Of a DNA stretch of 64,000 bases, positions 32,119 through 53,900 are shown piece by piece (the first letter of the stretch is position 1; each line of letters begins with the position of its first letter). The notes under the pieces are model-generated. The model ran no database searches. It was not told the origin of the DNA and was given only the letters and a program-made list of their open reading frames with translations. The stretch comes from Trinickia dinghuensis. GTDB lineage: Bacteria > Pseudomonadota > Gammaproteobacteria > Burkholderiales > Burkholderiaceae. The DNA lies in NCBI RefSeq assembly GCF_003367175.1, contig NZ_QRGA01000017.1, positions 62,001-126,000 of the forward strand. Direction: 5' to 3'. A program made the position numbers and the translations under genes.

Positions 32119-32181
32119 GCGGCGCGACGCGGGCAACGCGCCCGTAGTCGCTGATGCAACGAACTCACAAAGGACTACCAG

Positions 32182-33675: not shown

Positions 33676-33752
33676 CGGCAAACGACGTATGAACGCGCGG
33701 CGTGCGCCAAGGCGCCGCCGCCCTTTTCGCCATTTACCGATTCGGATCAGAC

Positions 33753-34241: not shown

Positions 34242-34307
34242 TGAAGTGATCGCGGCGCGCCGCCCGAAGGTGGCGCGCCGCGTTGTCGTTCGTCCAAGGC
34301 TTACGTT

Positions 34308-34757: not shown

Positions 34758-34762
34758 CCGAC

Positions 34763-37611: not shown

Positions 37612-37626
37612 CGCGCCCGAGCCATC

Positions 37627-40329
37627 ATGGAAATTGACATTCGCACGTTGGTGAGCCGGCTCGATCCGGCATGCAAGCACGCCATGGAGCTGGCGGCGCA
37701 GCTGTGCGTGCGGCAAACGCATTACAACGTCGACGTCGAGCATTTCTTGCTGCAACTGCTCGAATCCGACGCGCCCGACCTGCGGGTCATTCTCGAACAT
37801 TTCGAGGTCGCCTCCGCCGATGTCGGCGGGCAGTTGCAGAAGGCCGTCGATCAGTTCAAACGAGGCAACGGCCGCACGCCCGCGCTGTCGCCGAATTTTT
37901 CGCGTTTGTTTCAAGAGGCTTGGCTCTTGAGTTCGATGCTGCTCGGGCAGCAGCAGATCCGCTCGGGCACGGTGCTGCTGGCGCTGCTCGAAGTCGATAG
38001 TCTGCGCGGCTTGCTGATCGATTCCGCACCCTCGCTGCTGAAGATTCCGCGGGCGACGCTGCGCGAATCGCTGCCGGCCGTGCTCGCCGCTTCGAACGAA
38101 GACGGCGGCCCGGCCGCCGCGCCTGCCGCGGGCGCCGCCGCAAGCGGCGCGGCCCCCGGGAAATCTCCGCTGCCGGCGATGCCGTCGGCGGCCGGCGGCG
38201 GGCCGGGCGGATCGGCGCTCGCGCAGTACACGATCGACCTCACGGAGCTGGCCCGCGAAGGCGCGATCGACCCGATCTACGGGCGCGATCTGGAAATCCG
38301 CCAACTGATCGACGTGCTGCTGCGGCGGCGTCAAAACAATCCGATCCTCACGGGCGAAGCCGGTGTCGGCAAGACGGCAGTGGTCGAGGGGTTCGCCCAG
38401 CGCATCGTGCAAGGCCAGGTGCCGCCCGCGCTGCTGAACGTCACTGTGCGCTCGCTCGATCTCGCGCTCTTGCAAGCCGGCGCGGGCATCAAGGGCGAGT
38501 TCGAGAATCGCCTGAAGTCGGTCATCGCCGAAGTGAAGGCGTCGCCGGTCCCCGTGATTCTCTTCATCGACGAAGCGCATCAGCTGATCGGCGCCGGCGG
38601 CAGCGAAGGCCAGGGCGATGCGGCCAACTTGCTCAAGCCCGCGCTCGCGCGCGGCGAGCTGCGCACGATCGCCGCCACCACGTGGGCCGAGTACAAGAAG
38701 TACGTGGAACGCGATCCGGCGCTCGCGCGCCGCTTCCAAGTGGTCAAGGTGGACGAGCCCAGCGAGGCGGTCGCCATCGAGATGCTGCGCGGCATGGTGC
38801 CCAAGCTCGCGCACCATCACGGCGTCGAGATCGTCGACGAAGCGGTGCGCGACGCGGTCAAGCTTTCGCATCGCTACATCTCGGGACGTCAACTCCCGGA
38901 CAAGGCGATCAGCGTGCTCGATACGGCCTGCGCGCGCGTGGCGATCGGACAAAGCGGCGTGCCGGAGGACATCGAGGCGCTCGGTCGTTCGCTCGACTCG
39001 GGCGAGAATCAGTTGCGCATTCTTCGCCACGAGGCTGCGACGGGCGCCGATCACGCCGATGCGATCGCCGCGCTGACCAAGCAGCTCGACGAGCAGCGCT
39101 CGAAGCATGGGCGGCTGACCGACAAATTGGCAACCGAGCAGCGCGCGGTGGATGAAATCCTCGCATGGCGGCGCAAGATCGCGCGGCAGGTGGAGGCGCA
39201 GGAGCCGGCGGAGGAGGGCGAGGACGCCCATTCGCTGCTGGCCAATCTCGGCCGCCTCGAAAAGGGCTTGGAAGCGGTGCAGAACGACGAACCGATGGTG
39301 CCGGTGTACGTCGATTCGGCGATGGTTGCCGAGGTGATCTCGGGCTGGACCGGCATTCCCGTCGGCCGCATGCTGGCCGACGAGCTGCATACGGTGCTCT
39401 ATCTGCACGACAAGCTGGCCGAACGCGTCGTCGGACAAGACGAGGCGCTCGATGCCATCGCGCGGCGCGTGCGCACGTTCCGCGCCGATCTCGACGATCC
39501 GAGCAAGCCCGTCGGCGTGTTCTTGCTGGTGGGGCCGAGCGGCGTCGGCAAGACCGAAACGGCCGCCGCGCTTGCGGACACGCTCTACGGCGGCGAGCGC
39601 AACATGATCACGGTCAACATGTCGGAGTTCCAAGAGGCGCATAGCGTATCGGGCCTCAAGGGCGCGCCGCCCGGCTATGTCGGCTATGGACGCGGCGGCG
39701 TGCTGACCGAAGCCGTGCGGCGCCGTCCGTACAGCGTCGTGCTGCTCGACGAGATGGAGAAGGCGCATCCGGACGTGCTCGAGCTGTTCTTCCAGGTGTT
39801 CGACAAAGGCGTCATGGAAGACGGCGAAGGCGTGCCGATCGACTTCAAGAACACGTTGATTCTGCTGACCTCGAACGCCGCTCAGGAGGTCATTACGGAA
39901 GCGTCCCAAGGCGGACGACGGCCGCCGCCCGAGGAACTGATCGAGCGGCTGCGCCCGGTGCTGCTGCGCCAGTTCAGCCCGGCCTTTCTCGGCCGGCTGG
40001 TACTCGTGCCGTACTACCACCTTGGCGACGCGCAGATCGCCGCGATCGTGAACCTGAAGCTGAACCGGCTCGCGGAGCGCTTCGCGCGCAATCATCACGC
40101 CGAGTTGACGTGGGACGACGAGTTCGCGCGCGTTATCACGGAGCGCTGCAAGGAAGTGGACAGCGGCGCGCGCAACGTGGATCACATCCTCACGCAGATC
40201 GTGCTGCCCGAGCTTGCGAGAGAGGTGCTCGAACGGATCTCCGTGGCCGAAGCGTTCGACGCCGTGCATCTAGCGTTCACGCCTACGGGCGGCCTCGCGT
40301 TCAGCTTCACGGCGGGAGACGGAGTCTGA
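37627..40329 (+). CDS. tssH: TssH (ClpV), T6SS sheath-recycling AAA+ ATPase
   Basis: A 900-residue ClpB-like AAA+ unfoldase that disassembles contracted TssBC sheaths. An N-terminal Clp-N domain (about residues 1-155) is followed by an Ala/Pro/Gly-rich linker (about 160-200). The first AAA domain has Walker A GEAGVGKTA at about 242-250, a middle coiled region follows, and the second AAA domain has Walker A GPSGVGKTE at about 636-644 and 'VVLLDEMEKAHPDVLELFFQ'. Length and both P-loops are normal. It starts 15 bp after tssG and ends 1 bp before vgrG. Confidence 0.97.
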   Translation: MEIDIRTLVSRLDPACKHAMELAAQLCVRQTHYNVDVEHFLLQLLESDAPDLRVILEHFEVASADVGGQLQKAVDQFKRGNGRTPALSPNFSRLFQEAWLLSSMLLGQQQIRSGTVLLALLEVDSLRGLLIDSAPSLLKIPRATLRESLPAVLAASNEDGGPAAAPAAGAAASGAAPGKSPLPAMPSAAGGGPGGSALAQYTIDLTELAREGAIDPIYGRDLEIRQLIDVLLRRRQNNPILTGEAGVGKTAVVEGFAQRIVQGQVPPALLNVTVRSLDLALLQAGAGIKGEFENRLKSVIAEVKASPVPVILFIDEAHQLIGAGGSEGQGDAANLLKPALARGELRTIAATTWAEYKKYVERDPALARRFQVVKVDEPSEAVAIEMLRGMVPKLAHHHGVEIVDEAVRDAVKLSHRYISGRQLPDKAISVLDTACARVAIGQSGVPEDIEALGRSLDSGENQLRILRHEAATGADHADAIAALTKQLDEQRSKHGRLTDKLATEQRAVDEILAWRRKIARQVEAQEPAEEGEDAHSLLANLGRLEKGLEAVQNDEPMVPVYVDSAMVAEVISGWTGIPVGRMLADELHTVLYLHDKLAERVVGQDEALDAIARRVRTFRADLDDPSKPVGVFLLVGPSGVGKTETAAALADTLYGGERNMITVNMSEFQEAHSVSGLKGAPPGYVGYGRGGVLTEAVRRRPYSVVLLDEMEKAHPDVLELFFQVFDKGVMEDGEGVPIDFKNTLILLTSNAAQEVITEASQGGRRPPPEELIERLRPVLLRQFSPAFLGRLVLVPYYHLGDAQIAAIVNLKLNRLAERFARNHHAELTWDDEFARVITERCKEVDSGARNVDHILTQIVLPELAREVLERISVAEAFDAVHLAFTPTGGLAFSFTAGDGV

Positions 40330-40330
40330 C

Positions 40331-42256
40331 ATGCTCGGAGTCACGACCGTTCAAGAAGGCAGCTTTCTTTCGGTGAGTACGCCGTTCGGTGCCGACGTGC
40401 TGTTGCTGGAGGGCTTCTCGGGCCGCGAGGCGATCTCCGAGCTGTTCCATTTCGAGCTGCGCATGCGCTCGGCGAACACCGCGCTTTCGGCCGCGTCGAT
40501 CGTCGGGAAAAGCGCGACCGTCACGCTGCAGTCGTCCGGCGGGGCGGCGCGCTACTTCAACGGCATCGTCACGCGCTTCACGCAGGTCGGCGCCGACGCG
40601 TCATACGGATACTATTCGGCGGCGCTGGCCCCGACTTTGTGGCTCGCCACACTGGGCCGCGACCGCGTGATTTATCAGAGCCTCAGTGTGCTCGACATCA
40701 TCCAGAAGGTGCTGGCTCCGTTCAACATCACGACGAAGCAGAGCACGACGGGTACCTACGCGGCGCGCGAGTACTGCGTGCAATACGACGAGAGCCCGTT
40801 CGATTTCGTGTCGCGGCTGATGGAAGAAGAGGGCATCTTCTACTTCTTCACGTTCGACGACAGCACCCACACGATGGTGTTGGCGGACAGCCCGTCCGTG
40901 CACCAGCCGGCAGCGAATGCCTCGCAACTGTGGTTTTCGAGCGATTCGGTGGCGCATAGCGCATCGGAGCGTGTGAGCGCGTTCGAACTCGTCACCGGAC
41001 TGACCGAGAACACGCATATCGTGGCCGATTACGACTTCACGTCGGCGACCGTTTCCACGGCGACCTCGTCGGCGGCGGCAGGCGTGACCAAAGGCACGCG
41101 CTACACCTTTCCGGGGCGCTATGCCGAGGCGTCGGACAGCGCGCATACCGCGGATCTGCGGCTCGCCGCGCAGCAGGTCGGCCAAGAGACCGGCCGCGGC
41201 ACGAGCGCCTGCTATGCACTCACGGCCGGTTCGAGCTTCACGCTCGGCGGCCATCCCAACAGCGCGGTCAATACGACCTACGTCGCGCGTGCGGTCGAGC
41301 ACAGCGCGACGAACGACGTCTACGCGAACGAATTCGTGGTGTTCCCCTCGACGGTGCCGTTCCGTCCGCCGCTCGTTACCCCGCGGCCCGTCGTCGCCGG
41401 CAACCACACGGCGGTGGTCACGGGCTCTTCGGGCGAGGAGATCTGGACCGACTCCTACGGGCGCATCAAGGTCAAGTTTCATTGGGACCGCTCGACCACC
41501 CAGAACGAGAACACGTCTTGCTGGGTGCGCGTCGCGCAGACCGTGGCCGGCAATGGTTGGGGGCACTTCTTCCTCCCGCGCGTGGGGCAAGAGGTCATCG
41601 TGAGCTATGTCGACGGCGATCCGGACCGTCCGCTCGTGACCGGCAGCGTCTACAACCAATCGAGCACGCTCCCCTACGCGCAGCCCTCGATGCAGACGCG
41701 CAGCACCATCATGTCGCGTTCGTCCAAGGGCGGCAGCGCCGGCAACGAAATCCGCATGGAGGACAAGACCGGCAGCGAGGAGCTCTATGTTCACGCGCAG
41801 AAGGACATGAACGTCTCGATCCAGAATGCCCTCGACACGACGGTGATCGCGGGCAACGAGACGCTCACGGTTCAGAAGGGCGACCGGACCGTCGACGTGC
41901 AGACGGGGAAGGAGACGCACACGGTCAAGGGCACGCGTTCGCTCGACGTGACCGGGGACGAGACGCATACGAATCATGGGAAGTTCACGCACAACGTGAC
42001 GGGAGACTACACGCTCAAGGTGAGCGGGAATTTGACGATAGACGTGAGTGGGTCGATCACGTTCAAGTCGGGTACGTCGTTGGCCATCCAAGCGGGCACG
42101 TCGCTCTCCAATCAGGCGGGTACCACGCTCGAGAACAAGGCGGGCACCACGCTGACGATTCAGGGTCTGGAGGTGCAGGCCAAGGCATCGGCGACGGCGA
42201 CCGTCGACGGCGGCGGGATGCTGACCGTGAAGGGCGGCATGGTGAAGATCAATTGA
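40331..42256 (+). CDS. vgrG: VgrG (TssI), T6SS spike protein
   Basis: A 641-residue VgrG. A gp27-like base occupies about residues 1-370 ('EYCVQYDESPFDFVSRLMEE'). The OB-fold/gp5-like region ('YGRIKVKFHWDRS', 'WVRVAQTVAGNGWGHFFLPR') is at about 375-460, and a beta-helical needle of short threonine/valine-rich repeats fills the rest. It ends at 'KGGMVKIN' with no C-terminal effector domain, so it is a plain spike that must be tipped by the PAAR-like protein encoded three genes on. It starts 1 bp after the tssH stop. Confidence 0.96.
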   Translation: MLGVTTVQEGSFLSVSTPFGADVLLLEGFSGREAISELFHFELRMRSANTALSAASIVGKSATVTLQSSGGAARYFNGIVTRFTQVGADASYGYYSAALAPTLWLATLGRDRVIYQSLSVLDIIQKVLAPFNITTKQSTTGTYAAREYCVQYDESPFDFVSRLMEEEGIFYFFTFDDSTHTMVLADSPSVHQPAANASQLWFSSDSVAHSASERVSAFELVTGLTENTHIVADYDFTSATVSTATSSAAAGVTKGTRYTFPGRYAEASDSAHTADLRLAAQQVGQETGRGTSACYALTAGSSFTLGGHPNSAVNTTYVARAVEHSATNDVYANEFVVFPSTVPFRPPLVTPRPVVAGNHTAVVTGSSGEEIWTDSYGRIKVKFHWDRSTTQNENTSCWVRVAQTVAGNGWGHFFLPRVGQEVIVSYVDGDPDRPLVTGSVYNQSSTLPYAQPSMQTRSTIMSRSSKGGSAGNEIRMEDKTGSEELYVHAQKDMNVSIQNALDTTVIAGNETLTVQKGDRTVDVQTGKETHTVKGTRSLDVTGDETHTNHGKFTHNVTGDYTLKVSGNLTIDVSGSITFKSGTSLAIQAGTSLSNQAGTTLENKAGTTLTIQGLEVQAKASATATVDGGGMLTVKGGMVKIN

Positions 42257-42290
42257 CGCCAACGCCAACGCCAACGCCGATGCCAACGCT
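42257..42290 (+). repeat. hexanucleotide tandem repeat after vgrG
   Basis: Five imperfect copies of a CCAACG-type hexamer (one copy CCGATG) begin right after the vgrG stop codon, in the 76-bp gap before the YwqK-repeat gene. It is non-coding and probably a slippage product. Confidence 0.55.
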
Positions 42291-42332
42291 ATCGCCCACC
42301 GAGCCTATCCAGCCCACCTAACCGAGACCGCC

Positions 42333-43061
42333 ATGTCCGATCCGAAACTCACGAGTTCACCGCTTGCCCCGGCCGTGCCGGCGGCGGCGGACGCTCGCGA
42401 GGTGGTCGAGCAGCGCGATCCGAGCGGCGCCGTGATCGGGCGCACGTCGATGCTGAACGGCGTGCCGCACGGACCGATGACGCGATGCATGCCGGACGGC
42501 ACGCCGACCTTCGATGCGCAGTACGCGCATGGCGCGTTGTCGGGACCGATGCACGCGTTCGACCCGCCGGGCGTGCCCGTGAAAGAGGCGCATTACGCGG
42601 ACGGCAAGGAGCACGGCGTGACGACGCTGTATCAGGACGGCCGCGTGTCCGCGCGGCAGCGGTATGTGGCCGGTGTGCTGCAGGGCGAGACCGTGGCCTA
42701 CGCGCCGTCGGGCCAGGTCACGTCGCGGCTTCCCTATGTGGCCGGGAAGCTCGACGGAGAAGCCGTCCATCTGCACGAAGGCGTCGTCGTGCGCCGCGTG
42801 CGCTACCGGGCGGGCGTGCTCGAGGGCGAGACGCGCGAGTACGCCGCGGACGGCAGCTTGGTTCAGAGCCTGCCGTATCACGCAGGCTTGCTGCACGGAA
42901 CCGCTCGCCGCTTCGACGCGGACGGCGCGGTGAGCGCGGAGCGCCGCTACGCGAACGGCAAGCCGGTGGAGGCGTGGCGCAGCGTCGACGCGCCCGTGGC
43001 CGGTGCGGCGGGCGGCTTGCCGAAGATGGTCGCGAATTTCGAAAAGTGGGTGAAGGGCTGA
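42333..43061 (+). CDS. YwqK/MORN-repeat protein of the T6SS locus
   Basis: A 242-residue protein built of about seven copies of a 23-residue MORN-like repeat with the pattern G..HG....Y..DG...... , for example 'YADGKEHGVTTLYQDGRVSA' and 'YHAGLLHGTARRFDADGAVS'. These are the repeats of the YwqK family, annotated as antitoxin-like in Bacillus. There is no signal peptide. The gene lies between vgrG and the PAAR-like gene, with which such proteins are often paired in Burkholderia T6SS loci, so it may help assemble the spike tip. The exact role is unknown. It ends 2 bp before the next gene. Confidence 0.82.
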   Translation: MSDPKLTSSPLAPAVPAAADAREVVEQRDPSGAVIGRTSMLNGVPHGPMTRCMPDGTPTFDAQYAHGALSGPMHAFDPPGVPVKEAHYADGKEHGVTTLYQDGRVSARQRYVAGVLQGETVAYAPSGQVTSRLPYVAGKLDGEAVHLHEGVVVRRVRYRAGVLEGETREYAADGSLVQSLPYHAGLLHGTARRFDADGAVSAERRYANGKPVEAWRSVDAPVAGAAGGLPKMVANFEKWVKG

Positions 43062-43063
43062 CG

Positions 43064-43450
43064 ATGGGCATTCTGGTCACCACCGGCACGATGTTGCAAT
43101 GCAGTTTCGGCGTGGCGCCTTCGTCGCTGAACGTGCTGCCGACGCCGTGCGTCATGTCGGGCGCGCCGGCCGCGACCATCATGGACAACGCGCCGATGGT
43201 CAACGTGATGCCGTTCGGCATGTGCAACTGCCCGGCCAACCCGGAAGTCGCGGCCGCGACCGCGGCGGCGCTCGGCGTATTGACGCCGATGCCGTGCGTG
43301 CCGGCCACGGCGGCGCCGTGGGCGCCGGGTTCGCCGACGGTGCTGGTCGGCGGTCAGCCTGCGCTGCAGAACAGTTCGAAATTGATGTGCAACTGGGGCG
43401 GCGTGATCCAGATCGTCGCGCCGGCGCAATTCACCACCATGGTGCCCTGA
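43064..43450 (+). CDS. DUF4280 PAAR-like spike-tip protein
   Basis: A 128-residue protein of the DUF4280 PAAR-like family. 'TTGTMLQCSFGVAPSSLNVL', 'TIMDNAPMVNVMPFGMCNCP' and 'WAPGSPTVLVGGQPALQNSS' are its signatures. Several cysteines probably bind a structural metal at the tip. It should cap the VgrG trimer. It carries no fused toxin domain. It sits 2 bp after the YwqK-repeat gene and 12 bp before the small membrane-protein gene, so it is co-transcribed. Confidence 0.9.
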   Translation: MGILVTTGTMLQCSFGVAPSSLNVLPTPCVMSGAPAATIMDNAPMVNVMPFGMCNCPANPEVAAATAAALGVLTPMPCVPATAAPWAPGSPTVLVGGQPALQNSSKLMCNWGGVIQIVAPAQFTTMVP

Positions 43451-43462
43451 GGACGACTCGCA

Positions 43463-43699
43463 ATGCCCTATGTGTTTTCCATGACCGCGCGAATGGCCAC
43501 GATCACGGCGTGCTGCGTTCTGCTGCTGTGCGTGCTGCTGTTCCTGCTCGGGGTCGAGATCGGCGCACGCTATGCCTCGCCGCCCGCCGCCGATGTGCCC
43601 GCGACGGCCTCCGGCGGCCCGGTCGTGAGCGAACGTACGCCCTTGCCGGCGAGTTCGGGCGCAGCCGCGTCCGTCGCGCCGGCTTCCAACGCTTCTTGA
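43463..43699 (+). CDS. small single-pass membrane protein of the T6SS locus
   Basis: A 78-residue protein with one strong membrane helix (about residues 12-32, 'ATITACCVLLLCVLLFLLGV') and an Ala/Pro/Ser-rich tail of about 40 residues. It starts 12 bp after the PAAR-like gene and ends 20 bp before the binding-protein gene, so it is operon-internal. No family is recognised. The helix-plus-flexible-tail design suggests an inner-membrane adaptor. Confidence 0.75.
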   Translation: MPYVFSMTARMATITACCVLLLCVLLFLLGVEIGARYASPPAADVPATASGGPVVSERTPLPASSGAAASVAPASNAS

Positions 43700-43719
43700 A
43701 ACTGCTAACGGTAATCGCT

Positions 43720-44694
43720 ATGCCTACGCTTCACACTTCGGGTCACACCTCGCACAGGCGGCATGTCGCGGCGCGTTCGCTGCGCGGATTGGCCGGCCGC
43801 ATCGCCGCCGCCGCGCTCGCGATGAGCTTCGGGCTTTTCGGTGCGGCGAGCGCCGCGCACGCTGCCGGCAAGCCGGCACCCGCGCCGGCCGTTGCGTCGC
43901 CGGCCAGCGCCCCGCCAGCGGTCACGCCGACCGGCCTCGTGCGTATGCCCGACGGACGCTTGCTCGCCCCCGAGTTCGCGCGCATCGTGAACCGGGGCGA
44001 ATTGGTGGTGGCGATGCTGGGCGTCGATCAGCCGCCGTTCTTCGAAACGCGCAACGGCCGCCTGCAAGGCGTCGACGTCGACCTCGCCGACGAACTGGCG
44101 GCGAAGCTCGGCGTCAAGGTGCGCTTCGATCGCGATGCGAAGACGTTCGACGACGTCGTCAGCCTGCTCGCGAACGGCGAGGCCGACCTGGCGATCAGCA
44201 AGCTGTCGCGCACCTTGGCACGCGCCGAGATCATCAGCTTCAGCACGCCGTATGTCCGCCTGCATCGCGCGCTGCTGCTCAACCGGATCAACTTTGCCCA
44301 GGTCGCTCACGGCCGTCCCGCGCCGGAGGTGATCCGTTCGTACGACAGCACGATCGGCGTGGTGATGAACTCGTCTTACTCGCAATACGTGCAGACCAAC
44401 TTCCCGAATGCGAAGGTCAAGGCGTATCCGAGCTGGGACGCGCTGCTCGCCGGGCTCGACAAGGGCGAGGTGACGGCCGCGTATCGCGACGAATTCGAAG
44501 TCAAGCATGTGCTCAAGAGCGATCCCACGGCGTCGCTGAAGCTGCGCGTCGTGACGCTGGACGATCTGGACGATCCGATCGCGATCGGCGTCAATGTGTC
44601 CACGCCCGCGCTGCTCTCGTTCGTCAATCAGTTCCTGGCGGAACGCAGCAACAAGCTCGATGTGAAGACATTGCTTCAAGCAACCGATAACTAA
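43720..44694 (+). CDS. periplasmic amino-acid-binding protein within the T6SS operon
   Basis: A 324-residue SBP_bac_3-type binding protein. A long signal region ends at 'SAAHAAGK' (about residue 50), followed by a Pro/Ala linker. The binding domain then starts around 'RIVNRGELVVAMLGVDQPPF', with 'GVDVDLADELAAKLGVKVRF' and 'ISKLSRTLARAEIISFSTPY'. The SRT..RAE..FS.PY motif contains the arginine that usually contacts an amino-acid carboxylate. No ABC permease or ATPase follows. Instead it is next to two symporter homologues and an Asp/Glu racemase. Aspartate, glutamate or a D-isomer is a reasonable but untested ligand. Confidence 0.9.
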   Translation: MPTLHTSGHTSHRRHVAARSLRGLAGRIAAAALAMSFGLFGAASAAHAAGKPAPAPAVASPASAPPAVTPTGLVRMPDGRLLAPEFARIVNRGELVVAMLGVDQPPFFETRNGRLQGVDVDLADELAAKLGVKVRFDRDAKTFDDVVSLLANGEADLAISKLSRTLARAEIISFSTPYVRLHRALLLNRINFAQVAHGRPAPEVIRSYDSTIGVVMNSSYSQYVQTNFPNAKVKAYPSWDALLAGLDKGEVTAAYRDEFEVKHVLKSDPTASLKLRVVTLDDLDDPIAIGVNVSTPALLSFVNQFLAERSNKLDVKTLLQATDN

Positions 44695-44732
44695 AACATG
44701 AAAGACCGAGGGCGCATTTCGGAGACCGGACG

Positions 44733-46010
44733 ATGAATACGAAAAAGCTTTATGCCATTGCTGTGAACCCGTGGGTGGTGATCGGCAGCCTCGCGCTCGG
44801 CAGCGCCTTCGGCTTATTGCTGCCCATGATGGCGGCAAAGCTCGATGTGATCGGCGACCTCTACGTGAACTTGCTGAAGATGACGACCTTGCCGTTCATG
44901 GTGTCGGCCGTGATCTTCAGCCTGCAGCGTCTGTTTCGCGACGGCGGGACGTCGCGGCTGATCGTACGGGTGGTGGCGGTGATCCTCGGTGCCTCGGCCA
45001 CGGTCGCGATCGTGGGCGCCATCGTGCTCTTGACGATGCGGCCCGGCGCCAACATCTCGACCGCGACGATGCATACGTTCGGCGCGATGGTCGGCAGCGA
45101 CGGCTCGGGTTCGAACGAGACCGTGATGAGCCTGTACGGGACGGACACCGTGCCGAAGACGGTCGGGTTGACCGACATGCTGAAAAGCATGGTGCCGAGC
45201 AATATTTTCGCGGCCCTCGCAAGCGGCGACGCGCTCAAGGCGCTCGTGTTCGCGCTGCTGTTCGGCCTCGCCGTCGGCCGCGTGCCGGAGCGCATCTCCG
45301 TGGGGCTGAGCCAGGCGCTGGAGACGGTCTACCACGCGTGCCAGAAGCTGATGCACTGGCTCAGCTATCCGCTGCCGCTGATTCTGTTCTGCATGAGCGC
45401 GGCGCAGTTGGGCAAGTCCGGGGTAGGGCCGCTGCATGCGATGCTGCAGTTCGTCATCGCATTCTTCGTCGTCGCGGTGCTGCTGCTCGTGCTCGCCGCC
45501 ACGATCATCTGGAAGCGCTCGGCGAATTCGCTGGCCAGCACGCTCGATGCCCTGCGCGCTCCGTTCGCGCTGGCGCTCGCCACGCGCAACAGCGCCGCCT
45601 GCATGCCGAGCATGATCGAAAGCCTCGTCGACCGCCTCGGCTTCGCCCGCTCGCGCGTCGAACTGATGGTGCCGCTCACGGTGTCGCTGCTGCGCGTGGG
45701 GCCGATGGTCTACTACGTCTGCGCGACCCTGTTCATCGCGCAGCTCTACGGCCGGCACCTCGGCGTGGTCGAGGTCAGCACGGTGCTGCTGGCCTCCGTT
45801 CTCGCGGGCTTCGCCTCGGCCGGCATGACCGGCCTCGTGACGGTGTCGCTGATCGGCATGACCTGCGTCTATCTGAGCCTGCCCTTCGAAGCGGCGTTCA
45901 TTCTGTTTCTCGCGGTCGATCCGCTGTGCGACATGCTGCGCACGCTGATCCTCGTCATCGGCAATACGGCTGCCGTGTCGGTCATTTGCCCCCGGCCGCT
46001 GAAGCTCTAG
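44733..46010 (+). CDS. divergent dicarboxylate/amino-acid:cation symporter homologue 1
   Basis: A 425-residue DAACS/SDF-family membrane protein with about eight helices plus re-entrant loops. The family frame is clear: 'VNLLKMTTLPFMVSAVIFSL' at the N-terminus, and the C-terminal 'DMLRTLILVIGN' keeps the D..R pair of the substrate site. However, the normally invariant NMDGT sodium/substrate motif is replaced by LRVGP (residues 320-324), and the serine-rich hairpin reads 'LATRNSAACMP'. Transport chemistry must differ from GltP-type carriers, or the protein is a sensor. It follows the binding-protein gene by 38 bp and precedes the racemase gene by 8 bp. Confidence 0.88.
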   Translation: MNTKKLYAIAVNPWVVIGSLALGSAFGLLLPMMAAKLDVIGDLYVNLLKMTTLPFMVSAVIFSLQRLFRDGGTSRLIVRVVAVILGASATVAIVGAIVLLTMRPGANISTATMHTFGAMVGSDGSGSNETVMSLYGTDTVPKTVGLTDMLKSMVPSNIFAALASGDALKALVFALLFGLAVGRVPERISVGLSQALETVYHACQKLMHWLSYPLPLILFCMSAAQLGKSGVGPLHAMLQFVIAFFVVAVLLLVLAATIIWKRSANSLASTLDALRAPFALALATRNSAACMPSMIESLVDRLGFARSRVELMVPLTVSLLRVGPMVYYVCATLFIAQLYGRHLGVVEVSTVLLASVLAGFASAGMTGLVTVSLIGMTCVYLSLPFEAAFILFLAVDPLCDMLRTLILVIGNTAAVSVICPRPLKL

Positions 46011-46018
46011 GACCCGCC

Positions 46019-46729
46019 ATGGCACTGATAGGCATCCTCGGCGGCATGGGCCCGCTGGCCACCGTCGATTTCATGGAGCGGCTGATCGCGTTGACGAGTT
46101 CGGCCGGGGCGTCGCGCGACCAACAACATTTGCCGATGCTGGTCGTGCATCTGCCGCATATTCCCGATCGTTCCGAAGCGTTGCTCGGCAACGGCGAAAG
46201 CCCGTTGCCGGCGCTGCTGCACGGCATCGGCATGCTGAACCGCAACGAAGTGGAGCTGATCGTCATTCCGTGCAACTCGGCGCATCACTGGTACGACGAG
46301 ATGCGCGCCGAGAGCCGCGCGCCGATCATCCACATCGCCGAGGCGAGCGTGGCGGCGCTGCCCGCCGGCGTGCGGCGCGTGGCCGTGCTGGCGACGGGCG
46401 GCACGCTGCATTCCGGGCTCTACCAGCGGATGCTCGCCGCGCGCGGGTTCGAATCCGTCGAGCCCGACGCCGCCACGCAGCACCATATCGACGCCTGCAT
46501 TACCGACGTCAAGGCGGGCAAGATCGGCGCATCGACGGAGCATCTTGCGCTCGCCCTCGATTGGTTCGCCCGTCAGGGCGCGCAGGTCGCGGTCCTCGGC
46601 TGCACCGAGCTGCCGCTCGCCGCGCAGCAGATGAGCGCCCCGCCGATCCCGACCATCGACAGCACGCTCGAGCTCGCGCGCGCGACGGTGTCCTACGCGC
46701 TCGCGCACGGCTGGAACCGGCCCCTATGA
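46019..46729 (+). CDS. aspartate/glutamate racemase family protein
   Basis: A 236-residue cofactor-independent racemase. 'MALIGILGGMGPLATVDFME' is the RacX/YgeA-type opening. The two catalytic cysteines are present at C85 ('VIPCNSAHHWYDEM') and C195 ('VLGCTELPL'), so it should be active and interconvert L- and D-aspartate, glutamate or a related amino acid. It is not MurI, which would have a different surrounding sequence. Its TGA overlaps the start of the second symporter homologue (ATGA). Placed inside a T6SS operon, it may process D-amino acids from peptidoglycan or make a regulatory D-amino acid; both are inferences. Confidence 0.92.
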   Translation: MALIGILGGMGPLATVDFMERLIALTSSAGASRDQQHLPMLVVHLPHIPDRSEALLGNGESPLPALLHGIGMLNRNEVELIVIPCNSAHHWYDEMRAESRAPIIHIAEASVAALPAGVRRVAVLATGGTLHSGLYQRMLAARGFESVEPDAATQHHIDACITDVKAGKIGASTEHLALALDWFARQGAQVAVLGCTELPLAAQQMSAPPIPTIDSTLELARATVSYALAHGWNRPL

Positions 46730-48147
46730 ACAAGCTCAGACAACTGCCCAATTCCGCGCTCGTCCTGCTGCTGTGCGTGTTGTTGGGCAGCGTCGCGGGT
46801 GCGTTCGCCGAGCCGGTCGGCGAGGCGGCCTATGCCGTCGGGCAGGTTTATATCTCGATCGTCAATATGGCGGCGGTGCCGTTGCTCGTGGTGGCGATGT
46901 TCTTCGGGCTGCGCCAGCTGATGGGCCTGCCGCGCCCCGGCATGCGCATCGGCACGATGCTGATGCTCGCGATTGCGCTCGTCTTGCTGTGCGGCTTCGC
47001 CGGCACGGTGGCCGGCGTAGCGGCGGCGCCGGGACAGCACATCTCCGGTGCCGCGCATGCGCAGCTCGGCCGGCTGATCCTCGGCAGCAGCGGCGACGCG
47101 GGCGAGTTGAAGATGGCCTTGTTCGCGCAAGGCGCGCAAGGGGCGGCCGATCACCTTTTCGCGCTCGCCGACGTCGTGCCCGACAACTTCTACAGCGCGC
47201 TCGCGAGCGGCCGCGCGCTGGGCATCCTCACGTGCACGATCTTCTTCGGCATGGCGTTCGCCGCGCTGTCGGGCGAACAGACGAGGGTGCTCAACGGGAT
47301 CTTCGAAAGCATCTATCGCACGCTCGAAGCGCTGATCGACTATGCGAACCTGCTGCTGCCGGTGCTCGTGTTCGGCACGGCGGCCCACTTGGTCGCGCAC
47401 ACGCCGAAAGAGATTCTTTCGGCGATGAGCGGTTTCATCTCGGTCTTCCTAATTTCGGCGGCCGTCTTGTCGTGCATCGCGCTGACGGCGATCGCCGCAC
47501 GGACGGGCGTCTCGTTCGGCCGCGCCGTCGCATGTCTGCGCGCGCCCATGCTGGTCGGCTTCACGGCCGGCACGGCGACGGCCGCGATTCCGCATACGAT
47601 CGAAGCGATGAGCGCGAAGCTCGGCTTGAGCCGCGGCGTGGCGGAACTGGTCGTGCCGTTCGGCGCGGTATTCTTGCGCGCCGGCTCGGCATTGTATTTC
47701 GCGTTAGTTGCGTCGTTCGTCGCTAACTTGTACGGTCACTCGCTTGGTTTCGGCGATTGTGTGATGATCGCCGTCGCCGCCTCGGTTGCCGCCTTCGCGT
47801 CGGCCGGCCGCAACGGCATCAGCGGCATCGCCGCCGCGGGGATCGCTTTGTCGGTGCTGCGGCTGCCCGTCGAGGCCGCCTTGGTGCTGTTCGTTGCGAT
47901 CGATTTGATTTGCGACGGGCCTCGCAATCTGCTGAGCCTGCTCGCCACGTGCACGGTCGTGGCCCTGGCGTCGGCGGGCTTGCAGGCCGACCGGGCCGCC
48001 GCGCCGTTGCAGCAGAAGGCACCATACGGCGATTCGGTGATGGTGCGCCTCGCTTTTACGCGGGCGCAGCTTGCCGTGGTGGCGGGCTGTGCGCTCGTGG
48101 CGGCTTCTTTGATCGTAGTGATGGGTATAGGAGTGGGGGCAAGATGA
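46726..48147 (+). CDS. divergent dicarboxylate/amino-acid:cation symporter homologue 2
   Basis: A 473-residue second DAACS/SDF homologue. It shares the family core ('SIVNMAAVPLLVVAMFFGLR', 'VPFGAVFLRAGSALYF', 'RLPVEAALVLFVAIDLICDG'). The NMDGT motif is replaced by LRAGS (residues 317-321), the same LRxG pattern as its neighbour, and the terminal helix has DGPRN in place of D..RT. The serine-rich hairpin reads 'TAGTATAAIPHT'. A C-terminal extension adds one more membrane helix (about 446-468). Start and stop both form ATGA overlaps, with the racemase gene and with tssJ. This binds the module into the secretion operon. Confidence 0.88.
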   Translation: MNKLRQLPNSALVLLLCVLLGSVAGAFAEPVGEAAYAVGQVYISIVNMAAVPLLVVAMFFGLRQLMGLPRPGMRIGTMLMLAIALVLLCGFAGTVAGVAAAPGQHISGAAHAQLGRLILGSSGDAGELKMALFAQGAQGAADHLFALADVVPDNFYSALASGRALGILTCTIFFGMAFAALSGEQTRVLNGIFESIYRTLEALIDYANLLLPVLVFGTAAHLVAHTPKEILSAMSGFISVFLISAAVLSCIALTAIAARTGVSFGRAVACLRAPMLVGFTAGTATAAIPHTIEAMSAKLGLSRGVAELVVPFGAVFLRAGSALYFALVASFVANLYGHSLGFGDCVMIAVAASVAAFASAGRNGISGIAAAGIALSVLRLPVEAALVLFVAIDLICDGPRNLLSLLATCTVVALASAGLQADRAAAPLQQKAPYGDSVMVRLAFTRAQLAVVAGCALVAASLIVVMGIGVGAR

Positions 48148-48725
48148 CGGACTGGCGACGCTCTGCGGGACAGCCTCTGCACGTGCATGGCGGCACACCG
48201 CGCGATGCGGATGCGTGCGCGCACGAGACGAGGTGCGCGGCGCGCGGCGAGACGGCGCGCATCCGGCGCTGGGCCGCGTCGTGCGCGGCCGTGCTGTGCT
48301 TTGCGGGTCTCGCCGGATGCTCGGTGCTGTTTCCGTCGGGCGAGAAAGTGAAGTGGGACGAGATGACGCTCGCGGCGAGCGACCAGGCGAACAACGACAG
48401 CCCCATCGCGGTCGACGTCGTGTTCGTGACGGACAAGACCCTGCTTGCCCGCGTCGCCGAGCTGCCCGCTTCGAAATGGTTCACCGTGCGCGGCGATCTC
48501 GCCGCCACGTTCCCCGATTCGCTTCACTATCAGAGCTGGGAGCTCGTGCCCGGCCAGCGGCTCGTGGTGCCGGGAGACAAGCTGCGCGGGCCTCGCGTGG
48601 CAGGCGTCTTCGTGTTCGCGGACTACCCGGGGCCGGGTGCCTATCGTGTGCGGGTCGAGCGCTTCAACGGCCGGCTCGTCGTGCAGCTCGGCGACAACGC
48701 ATTTTCCGTTTCGAGTGTGAAATGA
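48144..48725 (+). CDS. tssJ: TssJ, T6SS outer-membrane lipoprotein
   Basis: A 193-residue TssJ/SciN/VasD lipoprotein. The lipobox is 'CFAGLAGC' with the lipidated cysteine at about residue 59. The N-terminal cytoplasmic part before the signal helix is unusually long (about 40 residues, rich in Arg/His/Asp), so a later start is possible, though no better ATG is seen. The mature part ('NNDSPIAVDVVFVTDKTLLA', 'LVPGQRLVVPGDKLRGPRVA') fits the transthyretin-like fold. It anchors the TssJLM trans-envelope complex. Its ATG overlaps the stop of symporter homologue 2. Confidence 0.9.
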   Translation: MTDWRRSAGQPLHVHGGTPRDADACAHETRCAARGETARIRRWAASCAAVLCFAGLAGCSVLFPSGEKVKWDEMTLAASDQANNDSPIAVDVVFVTDKTLLARVAELPASKWFTVRGDLAATFPDSLHYQSWELVPGQRLVVPGDKLRGPRVAGVFVFADYPGPGAYRVRVERFNGRLVVQLGDNAFSVSSVK

Positions 48726-48806
48726 CAGAACTTGGCAGTGCTTTCGATTCCCGATGCTCCGCACCGCCGTGCGGCCGGGCCATTCCCCGCAGCGCGAGGT
48801 GCCGTC

Positions 48807-50138
48807 ATGCCTGATCGGCTCGTTCCCGTCGTTGACCGCGTCGAGTGGTTCGAGGGCATGCTGCTCGCGCCGCAGCACTTTCAGCTGCTCGGCGCGCGCG
48901 TCGATTCGCTCGTCGCCTGGCAGACGTTGGCAGCCGCTCCGTTCAGCTGGGGCGTGCGCCGCCTCGTGTTCGACGAAGGCTTGCTGGCAGCGGGCATCGT
49001 GCGCGTGCTCGCGCTCGAGGCGATCATGCCGGACGGCACGGCAGTGTCCTATGCCGCCGAGCTCGCTCAGCTCGGCCGCCTCGAATGCTCGCTCGCCCCG
49101 TTCGCGGAACGGCTCGCCACCGAGACGCTGCCGATTTATCTCACGCTGCCCGTCGCCGCGTCGATGCGCGGCGAGGCCGAAATGCGCCGGTTTCGTTCGG
49201 TGGCGGGAGACCCAGTCGAAGACGACACATCGGGTGCGCCGACGGCCGATATCCCGCGCCTCGTGCCCAATCTCGCGCTCGAGGCGGGCGACGTGCCGTC
49301 CGGCCGCTTCGTCTCGCTGTGCCTCGGCACCGTGTACAAGGACAACGAGATGGTCAAGCTGGGCGAGCGGCAGCCGCCGCTGCTCGAAGTCTCGCGCGAC
49401 AATCCGTTGTGGACGGCGGTCGCCGCGTTGCTCGGCCAGGTCCGCGGCAAGGCGGCGTTCGTCGCGCGCCAGACCGCCATTCCTTCGTCGAAAGCCGACG
49501 ATCGCTTGACGCAGCTCGAGCTGAAGGACCGATTGCGCAGCCTGCTTGCGGCGCTGCCGCTCGCGGAAGCCATCTTGCGCACGCCGCATCTGCATCCGCT
49601 CGCGCTCTATCATGCGCTCGCCGCGCTGCACGGCTCGCTCTCGATGCTCGCGCCCGGCGGCTTGCCGCCCGTGCCGCCCGACTACGACCACGCCGATCCG
49701 CTTGCCGTTTTCACGCCGCTGATCGCTTCGCTGCGCGAGGCGATCGCCGAGGTTAGCGAGGGCTACCGCGAACGCAAGTTCCACTTCGGCAACGACATGT
49801 TCGACATCGTCTTGCAGGCGCCGTGGGTGGAAGGACGGCTCGTGCTGGGCCTGCGCGGCCAATCCGATCGCGATCTGCTGGCTTGGATGGACGGCGCGGT
49901 GATCGGTTCCGAATCGGCCTACGCGTCGCTGCGCAACCGGCGCGTGCTCGGCGCTTCGCGCCGCGCGGTGGAGTATGCCGAGGAACTCGGCATCCGCTCG
50001 GGTTCGGGCTACCTGCTGTTCGAGGTCGAGGCCGATCCCGCGCTCGTACGCGCCGGCGAGGCATTTGTCATCAGCAATCCGAACGAAGGGGCGAGCGCGC
50101 AGCGGCCCCAGGAAATGCTGTTGTTCACGAAAGACTGA
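48807..50138 (+). CDS. tssK: TssK, T6SS baseplate-membrane complex connector
   Basis: A 443-residue TssK/ImpJ/VasE. 'VDRVEWFEGMLLAPQHFQLL' near the N-terminus and 'KFHFGNDMFDIVLQAPWVEG' are diagnostic. It links the baseplate to TssL/TssM and resembles phage receptor-binding proteins. I chose the ATG at 48807, which gives the standard family N-terminus and length with a GAGGT upstream; the TTG frame from 48732 adds 25 doubtful residues. Confidence 0.95.
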   Translation: MPDRLVPVVDRVEWFEGMLLAPQHFQLLGARVDSLVAWQTLAAAPFSWGVRRLVFDEGLLAAGIVRVLALEAIMPDGTAVSYAAELAQLGRLECSLAPFAERLATETLPIYLTLPVAASMRGEAEMRRFRSVAGDPVEDDTSGAPTADIPRLVPNLALEAGDVPSGRFVSLCLGTVYKDNEMVKLGERQPPLLEVSRDNPLWTAVAALLGQVRGKAAFVARQTAIPSSKADDRLTQLELKDRLRSLLAALPLAEAILRTPHLHPLALYHALAALHGSLSMLAPGGLPPVPPDYDHADPLAVFTPLIASLREAIAEVSEGYRERKFHFGNDMFDIVLQAPWVEGRLVLGLRGQSDRDLLAWMDGAVIGSESAYASLRNRRVLGASRRAVEYAEELGIRSGSGYLLFEVEADPALVRAGEAFVISNPNEGASAQRPQEMLLFTKD

Positions 50139-50152
50139 CGGTGGACACCAAG

Positions 50153-50911
50153 ATGGCACGCACCCGTATTGAAACCGAAGAGAACGACCTCGCGATGGAG
50201 CAGTTTCGCGCGTTCCTCGACGAGCTCGTCAAGGCACAGCGCCGTTTCTCCGAAGCGGCCGAGACCGACGCGGAGCAGGCCGCTCAGGGCATGTCGCGGC
50301 ATCTGCTGAATGTGCTCGAAATTCAGACGCTGCAGTCGCGCCGCGACAGCACGCGCTTCGACATCGAGAACGTGGCCGACGCGCGCTACCTCAAAGCCGT
50401 CATCGCCGACGAATTGCTGCTCAACACGCAGTGGGCGGGGCGCGAGCGCTGGACTGCCTACTTGCTCGAATCGGCGCTCTTTCGCACCAACATCGCCGGC
50501 GATCTCGTCTTCAAGAAGATCGAGGAATTGCTGTCGGACCGCGAGCCGTCGCGCCGCGATATCGCGCGGCTGTACTTGTTCGCGCTCGCGATGGGCTTTC
50601 AGGGGCGCTTCCGCGGCGCGGGCGAGGCGGCCGATGCGCGCCTGCGCAGCTATCGCGAAGAACTCTACGAATTCATCTATCAGCGCCGCGCCGATTTGGG
50701 CGGGCGCGATCGCGTGGTGGCCGAGTCCGCCTATACGAACACCCTGTCCCACATCGCGCCGCGCAAGCTGCCGACGGTCAGCCGATGGAGCGTGATGGCA
50801 TTGCTCGTGGTCGTGGCGCTGCTCGCCGTCTCGGAGATTTTGTGGCTGTGGCAATCGTGGCCGGTGCGCCAGGCGCTGCATGGCGACACGGTCGTGGGAG
50901 TGAGCTCATGA
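50153..50911 (+). CDS. tssL: TssL (DotU family), T6SS inner-membrane protein
   Basis: A 252-residue TssL/DotU/VasF. The cytoplasmic helical domain ('YLKAVIADELLLNTQWAGRE', 'LYLFALAMGFQGRFRG') is followed by one C-terminal membrane helix (about 212-234, 'WSVMALLVVVALLAVSEILW') and about 18 periplasmic residues. There is no peptidoglycan-binding extension, so anchoring to the cell wall must come from elsewhere. A GTG 12 bp upstream is an alternative start. The stop overlaps a 15-codon frame that leads to tssM. Confidence 0.93.
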   Translation: MARTRIETEENDLAMEQFRAFLDELVKAQRRFSEAAETDAEQAAQGMSRHLLNVLEIQTLQSRRDSTRFDIENVADARYLKAVIADELLLNTQWAGRERWTAYLLESALFRTNIAGDLVFKKIEELLSDREPSRRDIARLYLFALAMGFQGRFRGAGEAADARLRSYREELYEFIYQRRADLGGRDRVVAESAYTNTLSHIAPRKLPTVSRWSVMALLVVVALLAVSEILWLWQSWPVRQALHGDTVVGVSS

Positions 50912-50955
50912 ACGCCATCCATCGTTCGACCCATGCGGGGGCGGCGCTATGTTGA
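50908..50955 (+). CDS. possible 15-residue coupling ORF between tssL and tssM
   Basis: A 15-codon frame (MNAIHRSTHAGAALC) begins with an ATG overlapping the tssL stop (ATGA). It ends with a TGA that lies just inside the tssM frame, overlapping the tssM start at 50949 by 7 nt. This geometry would hand ribosomes from tssL to tssM. It may simply be a chance frame in a 37-bp gap. Confidence 0.3.
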   Translation: MNAIHRSTHAGAALC

Positions 50956-53900
50956 CGAGCAACCTGTTCCTCTTGTCGGTCGCCGTTCTGATCCTCGTTG
51001 TGCTCGTCGTGCTCGGCGCGGTGCTCTGGATCGCGGCGCACAGCGCGCAGAACAAGCCGGCCGCGGAGCGCAAGATCGTTCGGCTCCGTACCGATTCGCT
51101 GCGCAATGCCTTTCGCCACGCCGTCGAGTTGATCGAAGGCAACATTGCGTCGCGCGGCGAGCGTTACAACGTTCCCTGGGTCATCGTCCTGAACGAAGGG
51201 GACGACCCGCGGCCGCTGCCGATCGCCCAGGCGGGCGTCGCCAGCGTCCTGAGTTCGGAGGCGGCGAATCCGGCTGCGATCCAGGGCATCTCGTGGAACT
51301 TCTTCGATCGCGGCGTGGCGATCGACATCAAGGCCGCGTATCTCGGCTCGCCCGACGATGGCAGCGACGAAAAGCCCTGGGACGAATTCCTGAGCCTGTG
51401 CCGCAACTACCGGCCGCAGCGGCCGTTCGATTCGGTCGTGGTGACCGTCCCGGCCGCGATGCTGCTCGCCGATCACCCCGATGCGAGGCTCGAGCTGGAA
51501 CGCCATGCGAAGCAGGCGCACCGCCGGCTATGGCTCGCGCAGAATCGCTTCGCGATGCGGTTCGCGGTTTATGTCGTCGTGACCGGCTGCGAGGATCTGC
51601 CCGGCTTCGCCGCGTTCGCGCGGGCGCTGCCCGACCCGTTGCGCGCGAGCATGCTGGGATGGTCGTCGCCGTTCGATCTGTCCACAACCTACCAGTCGAA
51701 CTGGGTCGATACCGCGATGGCCAGCATGGAGCGCGCCGTGTCCGATGCGAGCGCGGAACTCTTCACGCTCGACACGGGGACGATCGACGTGCAGGGCTGC
51801 CTGCTGCTGCCGGCGCGTATCGACGCGATCCGCTCGCAGTTGCAGCTCTATCTCGACGAGTTGATGCGGCCTAGCGCGTACCACGAGCCGTTCTTCTTCC
51901 GCGGTATCTATCTGACGGGCGACAGCGGCGAACTCGCGCAGCGCGGCGAAGGCCGGCAGGAAGCGGGCGAGGGCGCGGGGCTCGATTCGCCCGAGGCTTA
52001 CGATCCGTATGGCGAGCGCGCGGAGCCTCACTTCGCGTCGGAAGGCGATGCCGAGGGAGCGGAGCAGGACGGCAGCCGTGTGCTGAACGACCTCATGCTG
52101 CAGCCGGCTTTCTTGCGCGACCTGTTCGAGAAGAAGATCTTCGTCGAATACGGGCTGACGCGGCCGTCGCGTTCGCAGCACCTGACACGGCCCATGATGC
52201 ACCGGGCGGTGCGTTGGGGCGGCGTTGTCTTGCTGGGCGGTTGGGCGCTGGGCCTGGCGGGCGCGACGTTGGCGCTGAGCCATCGCAATCCGCGGCTCGT
52301 GTCCGCATTGAACGAACTGCATGCCGATGCGCAGGAGCGCGATGCGGCGGCACGCGGCGGCGAGTCGCTGCCGTCGGACTGGTACCGCCGCAAGACGCTG
52401 GCGCTGATCGGCATGAACGGCCAGCATATCGGCACGCTCTGGACCGTCTTCATGCCTGGTTCGTGGAGCGTGTTCGACGATCTCGACGAACGCGTTCGCG
52501 GGCGCTTCGAGCATGAGTTCGGCGAGATCGCGCTGACCGCGCTCGAACGGGAGATGCTGGCGCACGTGAGCAAGATGACGGGCGTGGCGAGCGATCCGAG
52601 CACGGGGCAGCTGATCGTCGGCGACGACTGCATGGCACCGACGCTCGGCAGCGACTCGTCGGCCGTGAACAGTTTGGCCGTCGAGGATTTGCCCGCGATG
52701 CATGCGATGCAGCGCTACGTGACCTCGGTCGATCAGCTCGATGCGGCGCTGGTGGCCATGCAGCGCTTGCAGCGGCCGTCGCTCGGCAATGAGGAGGCGC
52801 TCAGGCTCGTCGTGCGCTATGCGTTCGGCACCGAGTTGCAGGGCAACGTCGCCGGCAGCTTGCGCTACTTTTATCACGATGCCTCGAACCGCGGCGATGC
52901 GTATACGGCGGACGGCACGGGCGGTTTGAACTTGTCCGTGATTCAGCAGGCGGTGCGCTGCACGTTCGACAAAGGCGCGCAGCAGCTCGACGCGCAAATG
53001 TTCACGGCCAACCCGCTGCTCGCGGCCGAGCGTGCGGTGACTGCCCAGATCGACGCGCTGTCGGTCGGCAGCGTGGGCCTCGGCGACTTCGCGCAGACGA
53101 GCGCGAGCTATCGGGCGATCGTCTCCGGCATCGACACGCAGCAAACCCTGCTTGCCGCGGGCAAGGCTGGCTGGATGCATCAGGCGCAGTTCAATCCCGG
53201 TCCGGTATGGGAGCGCACGTTCATCCACGCCACCCAGAACCGGCTGCTCGGGGTCGACCTCGTCACGCGTGTACGCGAGCGCTCCGGCACGGGGTTCCAG
53301 GTGTTCTCCAGCGAAATGGCGCAGCGTTTCGGCGGCCCGGACGGCGGCGTCGCCTGGGTCGACAAGGACGCGCGCTATGCGGTATCGCCCGCGCGGCTTG
53401 CGTTGCGCGACGGCTTGGCGAAGCTGCTGTCGCAGCCGTTCATGGTCGCGCCGCGCAATCTGCCGTTGCCGGCGGTACCCGACGGCTCGACCGTTACGTG
53501 GGACCGGACCCAGCTCGACCAGGCGATCGCGCTCGGCGACGAACGCAAGAAATATCTCGCCGATGGTTTGACGACGTTGCCCGATGCGGTGCGCCCGGCC
53601 GTGCAGCAGGCGCTCGATGCGCAGTTCGCGCGCCTGATCCTCGACCAAGTGGCGGGGGCAGCCGCGGTATCGCCGGCCGACGGCGATCCGGCGAGCACGT
53701 CGTTCGACGCCGCGCGCACCCGGCTCGTGAAGATTCGCGCCGTGCTGGCGGAAATGGGCGCAAACGCGCAGGCGGCCGATTTGGACACGCTCGTCTCGAG
53801 CGATGCCATGCAGCATCTGCGGCTAGTCGACAACGCGCTCGCGCAATCGGATCTCTACGCGACGCGCCCGGGGAGCATCGGCTCGGGCAGCGTGAAACCG

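Follow-up and report, generated by a model that had tools for sequence, protein, structure and literature searches.

A four-gene block with a predicted binding-protein-dependent SDF-fold carrier in a type VI secretion operon of Trinickia dinghuensis

Four genes between the PAAR-like gene and the tssJ position

We analyzed a 64,000-nucleotide stretch of the Trinickia dinghuensis genome (the window), in which the operon of a type VI secretion system (T6SS) holds four genes between its PAAR-like gene and the gene in the position of tssJ (Table 1). This block, here called the module, encodes a substrate-binding protein (SBP), a first carrier (DAACS1), a racemase and a second carrier (DAACS2). A preliminary description of the DNA had placed the module there with tightly spaced genes, and the gene positions, Pfam matches and overlaps agree: DAACS1 follows the SBP gene after 38 bp and the racemase gene follows DAACS1 after 8 bp, with ATGA overlaps at the racemase-DAACS2 junction and at the end of DAACS2. 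Pfam matches the SBP to SBP_bac_3 (E-value 2.9e-21; 76 bits, above the cut-off of 26.4), DAACS1 and DAACS2 to SDF (3.3e-58 and 7.7e-46; domain scores of 198 and 157.3 bits, both above the gathering cut-off of 27.9) and the racemase to Asp_Glu_race (1.5e-45), while the PAAR-like protein is a DUF4280 protein. The tssJ-position gene has neither a Pfam nor an NCBIfam match, and it owes its name to position and conservation.

The preliminary description knew of no T6SS model with such carriers as components, but the arrangement is already in print. Hug et al. (2021; PMC8356804) describe the same gene order in T6SS-b of Paraburkholderia phymatum STM815, where vgrG, a YwqK-like gene, a PAAR-like gene and a gene for a small protein are followed by genes for an amino-acid binding protein, an SDF protein, a racemase and a second SDF protein; no explanation of this order is offered in the available text of that report. 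Compared with it, the window's operon is of the T6SS-b type, with the core genes and the SBP-SDF-racemase-SDF block after vgrG-PAAR. The same source lists fifteen strains with a similar cluster, Janthinobacterium being without the racemase, and calls the carriers sodium:dicarboxylate symporters, with a substrate probably other than that of DctA. The association of SBP and carrier as a unit, the motif loss and the T6SS-free cassettes set out below are not described in its available text. We also take from it the name YwqK for the MORN-repeat protein (PMC8356804).

Table 1. Features of the module and its operon (window positions)
Feature	Position	Strand	Remarks
SBP, SBP_bac_3-family periplasmic binding protein, 324 aa	43720-44694	+	signal-like N-terminal stretch; Pfam
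DAACS1, SDF-family carrier, 425 aa	44733-46010	+	no cation-site Asp; Arg-Thr of transmembrane segment 8 (TM8) kept
Asp/Glu-type racemase, 236 aa	46019-46729	+	above cut-off of CuyB cysteate racemase model
DAACS2, faster-evolving SDF carrier, 473 aa	46726-48147	+	additional C-terminal helix (predicted); T6SS loci only
tssJ-position gene	48144-48725	+	ATGA overlap with DAACS2
Small open reading frame (ORF), 78 aa, hydrophobic N-terminus	43463-43699	+	no Pfam match
MORN-repeat (YwqK-like) protein, between VgrG and PAAR-like gene	42333-43061	+	
Upstream T6SS genes TssB, TssC, Hcp, TssF, TssG, TssH, VgrG, MORN protein, PAAR-like	31528-43450	+	
Downstream T6SS genes TssK, TssL, TssM, TssA	48807-56200	+	

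Occurrence with and without the secretion system

A DAACS2 orthologue (43-100% identity) occurs in 17 of 249 Burkholderiaceae genomes; in G015, which is among the 17, it is split into two matching pieces (45 and 48%). Ranked by score, the top 17 TssK matches (56-100% identity) fall in exactly these genomes, and G052, outside the set, has a TssK match that is only partial (57%). In all 16 genomes besides that of the window, the order VgrG-MORN-PAAR-small ORF-SBP-DAACS1-(racemase)-DAACS2-TssJ-TssK-TssL-TssM is kept, down to 43% DAACS2 identity and mostly with junctions of 8-12 bp and ATGA; the racemase is present in 14 of these 16 clusters and missing from L051 and L052. Named genomes, scanned in the same way, yielded 41 loci, several of which are the same contigs as loci of the Burkholderiaceae survey, so the two sets of counts are not additive. 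At least one T6SS gene lies beside the module in 33 of the 41, and 31 of the 33 have the racemase, the exceptions being Bordetella hinzii (L093) and Pseudoduganella ginsengisoli (L097); the remainder are seven Burkholderia loci without a T6SS match and one locus (L066) too short to judge. Of 399 genomes sampled from the order, five matched at E <= 1e-60, and these include three new T6SS loci, two with the racemase (L121 and L122) and one without (L120). This brings to five the module-bearing loci without a racemase, all of which retain the SBP and both carriers. These surveys bear out that the module is conserved along with this T6SS and is no strain-specific insertion; we rejected a chance insertion on the coincidence of TssK and DAACS2 in 17 of 17 genomes, the kept order and the named loci.

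The condition that would have refuted the link, tss genes contiguous in close relatives, had a mixed outcome: the best-matching T6SS clusters all contain the block, but three more distant clusters (L173, L174 and L175) are contiguous without it, and VgrG, PAAR and TssJ follow one another there. The TssK of L173 is 53% identical, and its genome (G036) has an additional, module-bearing cluster; L175 has a TssK of 39%, and L174 a TssK match in two pieces of 56 and 53%. In a tree of TssH and VgrG, L174 groups with the module-bearing L052 (support 100), as if the module had been lost or exchanged at least once; the grouping of L173 and L175 has a support of only 49, and the placement of both is not firm. 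Within L174 (3013-9653, minus strand), the matches to tssK and to tssM are each spread over two frames, which may reflect either decaying genes or sequencing errors. The small ORF occurs in clusters both with and without the module, and its matching N-terminal 36-40 residues are also found in the module-free L173 and L174. Judged by gene content and order, the module is an optional yet long-kept part of this T6SS.

The module is not bound to the T6SS, however: Burkholderia, Gemmobacter and other bacteria carry the SBP-carrier pair, often with the racemase, without a T6SS gene nearby. The new observation here is that SBP and DAACS1, often with a CuyB-like racemase, form a cassette that also occurs without a T6SS. 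The seven named Burkholderia loci have SBP-DAACS1-racemase and no DAACS2. In six of the seven these genes are followed by a LysR gene and by genes for a periplasmic binding protein, a hydrolase of 2-amino-thiazoline-4-carboxylate (ATC) and an M20 carbamoylase-type hydrolase, and the seventh (L091) has only pieces of the LysR and M20 genes; these families were typed on L056, with PF14196 for the ATC hydrolase. The Burkholderia copies lie within the T6SS branch of the DAACS1 tree (nested splits of 95, 100 and 92) and group with the T6SS copy of L077 in the racemase tree (support 98), so in Burkholderia the cassette appears to have moved out of a T6SS and into the ATC locus.

Samples of 369 genomes from the class and 398 from the phylum contained four and nine genomes, respectively, at E <= 1e-45, the window's own genome being one in each. 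The distant T6SS-free loci number ten, Gemmobacter included. On a plasmid of Gemmobacter aquarius (L123, 11061-15297), the order is SBP-SDF-racemase-SDF, adjoining GMC oxidoreductase genes, and none of the 16 features displayed there is a T6SS product. The SBP adjoins the carrier in every distant locus open to assessment, nine in all (L123-L129, L131 and L132; the carrier comes first in L131), L130 being left out of the count as its carrier sits at the contig edge. At 20 control loci of ordinary SDF carriers, in contrast, a cassette-type SBP gene stands beside the carrier in none, the nearest case being L144 with such a gene about 2.9 kb away; these controls come from the window's family, are 25-28% identical to DAACS2 and were not typed individually. 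Matches occur in 17 of 101 genomes of one alphaproteobacterial genus, and SBP-carrier-racemase is present in 15 of the 16 loci beyond L113, with the sixteenth cut before the SBP. A racemase match is limited to L123, L124, L127 and L128 among the distant loci. Two SBP-carrier pairs face each other in L129 (3506-8043), where the second carrier has its own SBP_bac_3 gene. In L126 (1962-7511, minus strand), from an incomplete genome (63%), the pair lies between ATP synthase alpha-subunit-like and gamma-subunit genes. We found no T6SS genes in the stretches looked at around the Burkholderia, Gemmobacter and other Pseudomonadota cassettes.

Plasmids show the same association of SBP and carrier. Among 72,556 plasmid records, the Gemmobacter SBP matches five (E <= 1e-12) and the cassette carriers match four (E <= 1e-20 or 1e-25); all four are among the SBP's five, the fifth being Streptococcus suis at 32%. 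At an E-value of 1e-5, DAACS1 matches 328 plasmid records, mostly ordinary carriers below 30% identity, and only the best four exceed 35%.

Carriers, binding protein and racemase

The two carriers had been described as DAACS homologues, which is true for fold and descent, since both match SDF, but not for the coupling ion. The cation-site motif of SDF carriers, which we take to be N-x-D-G in TM7, has lost its Asp in 39 of 39 cassette carriers, both window carriers among them, while eight of eight controls keep N[LR]DG; the Asn is kept in only three of the 39 (the second carrier of L129, L130 and L131). With the usual motif missing, the coupling of DAACS1 is predicted to be altered. T6SS-linked DAACS1 retains the TM8 Arg-Thr, presumably a sign of acidic substrates; the pair is not kept by several distant carriers. 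DAACS2 retains the Arg, but the position that we take to be the site of the amino-group Asp varies among D, E, N and S. Our carriers share the SDF Pfam domain with GltPh, GltTk, DctA and GltP, and the DAACS2 model has a GltPh-like fold, but they differ in the missing cation-site Asp, in scores below the DctA and GltP cut-offs and in the adjoining SBP. We rejected an ordinary DctA or GltP identity because both carriers fall far below those cut-offs and have lost the cation motif.

The cassette carriers are split from the controls with a support of 100 (tree, bipartition count), and DAACS2 forms a clade of its own, as does DAACS1 together with the Burkholderia copies, each with a support of 100. 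DAACS2, seen only in T6SS loci, evolves faster, with a mean column identity of 57% (alignment A3) versus 71% (A2), although the sequence sets differ. Structure models were of only medium quality, with a mean pLDDT (predicted local distance difference test) of 68.2 each, and were used solely for the fold and the DAACS2 end: the Foldseek matches listed for DAACS2 have the glutamate-transporter fold, and an extra C-terminal helix is predicted, with low confidence there.

Residues S160, R168 and D257 of the SBP, presumably amino-acid-binding positions, are invariant in 14 aligned SBPs from T6SS and Burkholderia cassettes. The racemase has both of the cysteines noted earlier, C85 (PCN) and C195 (CTE), which we take to be the catalytic pair and which are invariant in 13 aligned rows. 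It scores 230.1 bits with the CuyB model NF052483 (cut-off 190) and is the sole match above the cut-off in its own genome; 14 control genomes gave one. The racemases of L056, Gemmobacter, L127 and L128 also pass the cut-off, and that of L124 does not (145 bits). CuyB interconverts L- and D-cysteate (PMC11382572), and the window racemase is a candidate CuyB-like enzyme that may act on cysteate. However, the ATC-linked Burkholderia racemase passes the cut-off too, so a score above it does not settle the substrate. The earlier proposal that the module makes a D-amino acid does not describe a constant function, with the racemase absent from L051, L052, L093, L097 and L120.

The route from DL-ATC to L-cysteine requires an ATC racemase (PMC10821248), and the Burkholderia SBP-DAACS1-racemase trio, which stands beside an ATC hydrolase and an M20 hydrolase, resembles this pathway. 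The cassette racemase next to the ATC hydrolase and the carbamoylase-type hydrolase (L085-L090 and L056) is thus an ATC racemase candidate, which would give the Burkholderia activity a candidate gene. The T6SS operon differs, with no ATC hydrolase among the window's typed genes.

Proposed function, alternatives and operon context

Before 2025, SBPs were known with ABC, TRAP and TTT transporters; since then the GltS carrier has been added by TAXI-GltS, a binding-protein-dependent transporter with glutamate as ligand (PMC12344293). As in TAXI-GltS, the gene for a soluble SBP stands here beside a secondary carrier thought to be of the elevator type, and an amino acid is the ligand in TAXI-GltS; unlike TAXI-GltS, which pairs a TAXI-type SBP with GltS, the module pairs SBP_bac_3 with SDF, as separate genes with no fusion seen. 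TRAP and TTT likewise combine an SBP with membrane components, and the two unequal membrane parts of TRAP (PMC12344293) are reminiscent of a possible DAACS1-DAACS2 pair, but their membrane families are unrelated to the SDF that Pfam finds here. Neither carrier, in fact, is a TRAP, TTT or TAXI-GltS membrane component, as both match SDF only. We found no SBP-dependent SDF transporter in the literature searched, including the available text of PMC12344293, PMC4500139 and PMC8276074, which is not proof of absence.

We propose that the block encodes an amino-acid importer of the SDF fold that depends on a binding protein, in the manner of TRAP, TTT and TAXI-GltS, and that it was recruited into a T6SS whose attacks would set its substrate free; we put the probability of this reading at about 0.5. 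The sequences themselves show the gene order, its conservation, the association of SBP and carrier, the loss of the motif, the paralogy of the carriers and the family of the racemase, whereas transport, transfer from the SBP, the substrate, the partner role of DAACS2 and salvage are inferences. The SBP would capture an amino acid in the periplasm and pass it to DAACS1, an elevator-type SDF carrier that would work without the usual cation motif, and the CuyB-like racemase, where present, would convert the imported enantiomer. The carrier appears to have been duplicated in the T6SS branch, with DAACS2 most likely a non-identical partner subunit and not a second independent carrier. The substrate is probably acidic, of the aspartate, glutamate or cysteate type, and within the T6SS operon the importer would take up amino acid freed when the T6SS damages neighbours; such salvage from attacked cells is our preferred functional guess. 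We counted for this reading the SBP beside the carrier (9/9 versus 0/20), the motif Asp (0/39 versus 8/8) and the split with a support of 100, together with the two SBP-carrier pairs of L129, the 15/16 loci of the alphaproteobacterial genus and the overlap of the plasmid records. We also counted the lack of an ABC permease or ATPase among the typed genes from TssB through TssA, the invariant ligand-site residues of the SBP, the RpoN/nitrogen control described below and the TAXI-GltS precedent (PMC12344293). The data fit an SBP-SDF class older than its T6SS link. A fuller version, in which one branch became a three-part SBP-DAACS1-DAACS2 heteromer wired into the T6SS operon, with attack and uptake of released amino acids as one regulon, is somewhat less probable, and we offer it tentatively.

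Several points weigh against this importer. Three T6SS clusters of the same kind do without the module, the SBP of L125 departs at the last of the three ligand positions (D257), and some distant carriers lose ligand-site residues. Neither the plasmid records retrieved nor the distant loci nor those of the alphaproteobacterial genus showed a fusion of SBP and carrier. The 20 control loci all belong to a single family and, by their motif, seem to represent mainly one carrier type, which makes them a narrow control. The E-value limits of the distant searches were strict, and divergent relatives that lack an SBP may have escaped them. DAACS1 and DAACS2 are set apart from the rest with a support of only 79, which weakens their pairing, whereas the support of 100 strengthens their separation from ordinary carriers. 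In P. phymatum, citrate gave the highest T6SS-b expression, and expression was low with glutamate, glucose, succinate or fumarate (PMC8356804), a pattern that does not speak for an acidic amino acid as inducer.

That report also cites positive control of T6SS-b by RpoN under nitrogen limitation, finds the system expressed in nodules and activated by germinated seeds, and notes that deletion of tssBC reduces swimming (PMC8356804). Mimosa root exudate down-regulates the P. phymatum T6SS BURPHP1_0486-506, which is syntenic with CCGE1002 and B. kururiensis (PMC5789663). This is probably T6SS-b, in which case root exudate lowers and germinated seeds raise the expression of one T6SS.

The main rival to the importer is a sensing role, in which the SBP and the motif-less carriers would act as a transceptor that senses extracellular amino acid and gates T6SS assembly or expression without bulk transport. 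The loss of the cation-site Asp from both carriers would suit a sensor, as would the variable substrate-site position and extra C-terminal helix of DAACS2 and the placement directly ahead of tssJ-K-L-M. However, the typed genes of the operon include no signalling domain, three clusters manage without the module, and SBP-carrier cassettes exist where the stretches examined contain no T6SS gene; we consider a transceptor unlikely. It is also possible that the module is a mere passenger, an ordinary metabolic unit with no functional tie to secretion, as the occurrence of the cassette elsewhere and its apparent departure to the ATC locus in Burkholderia might suggest. We give this less credence than sensing, because each of the 17 Burkholderiaceae genomes that best match this T6SS keeps the module in the same place with its genes overlapping, and 33 of the 41 named loci retain it as well.

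Hug et al. (2021) suggest that the carriers are ordinary cation:dicarboxylate symporters, which would turn T6SS-b on by sensing dicarboxylates of the plant or taking them up; the SDF family and the expression in nodules and on citrate would accord with this. Such a role is improbable for carriers far below the DctA and GltP cut-offs and without the cation motif, next to an SBP of the amino-acid type, in a system with low expression on succinate and fumarate (PMC8356804). Effectors are often encoded after vgrG and PAAR genes. The module occupies this frequent effector site (also PMC8356804) and the racemase cysteines are intact, but a racemase, or D-amino acid made by it, that acts on prey or on the cell's own wall during firing is the least probable of these alternatives, as five loci have lost the racemase and kept the rest and related racemases occur in cassettes without T6SS genes nearby.

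SDF carriers are classic elevators. It has been noted that only TRAP and TTT were previously known to work with a soluble SBP, that the elevator mechanism may permit this, and that further classes would test the idea (PMC12344293). If the importer is real, an SDF carrier accompanied by an SBP and no longer in possession of its cation-site Asp would be a direct test. For T6SS biology, the importer would give a puzzling gene order from the literature a hypothesis to test, the coupling of prey-content uptake to attack.

A few observations concern the operon at large. We rejected an internal promoter or terminator in the block, as 40200-51000 contains no sigma-70-like site and its six terminator-like sites are no excess over the shuffle mean of 7.6; this lack of signals is consistent with a single transcript without proving it. 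A defence-system identity was rejected as well, since none of the seven proteins tested had a PADLOC match. One exact match to a sigma-54-like pattern (30050-30064, plus strand) lies about 1.5 kb upstream of tssB within a minus-strand gene; 0.62 such matches are expected by chance, and it was not used as an operon promoter. Upstream of the T6SS operon, the divergent gene at 29456-30676 (minus strand) has a weak Tle1-like match (2.9e-06) together with DUF5621, and it possibly encodes a T6SS phospholipase-type effector.

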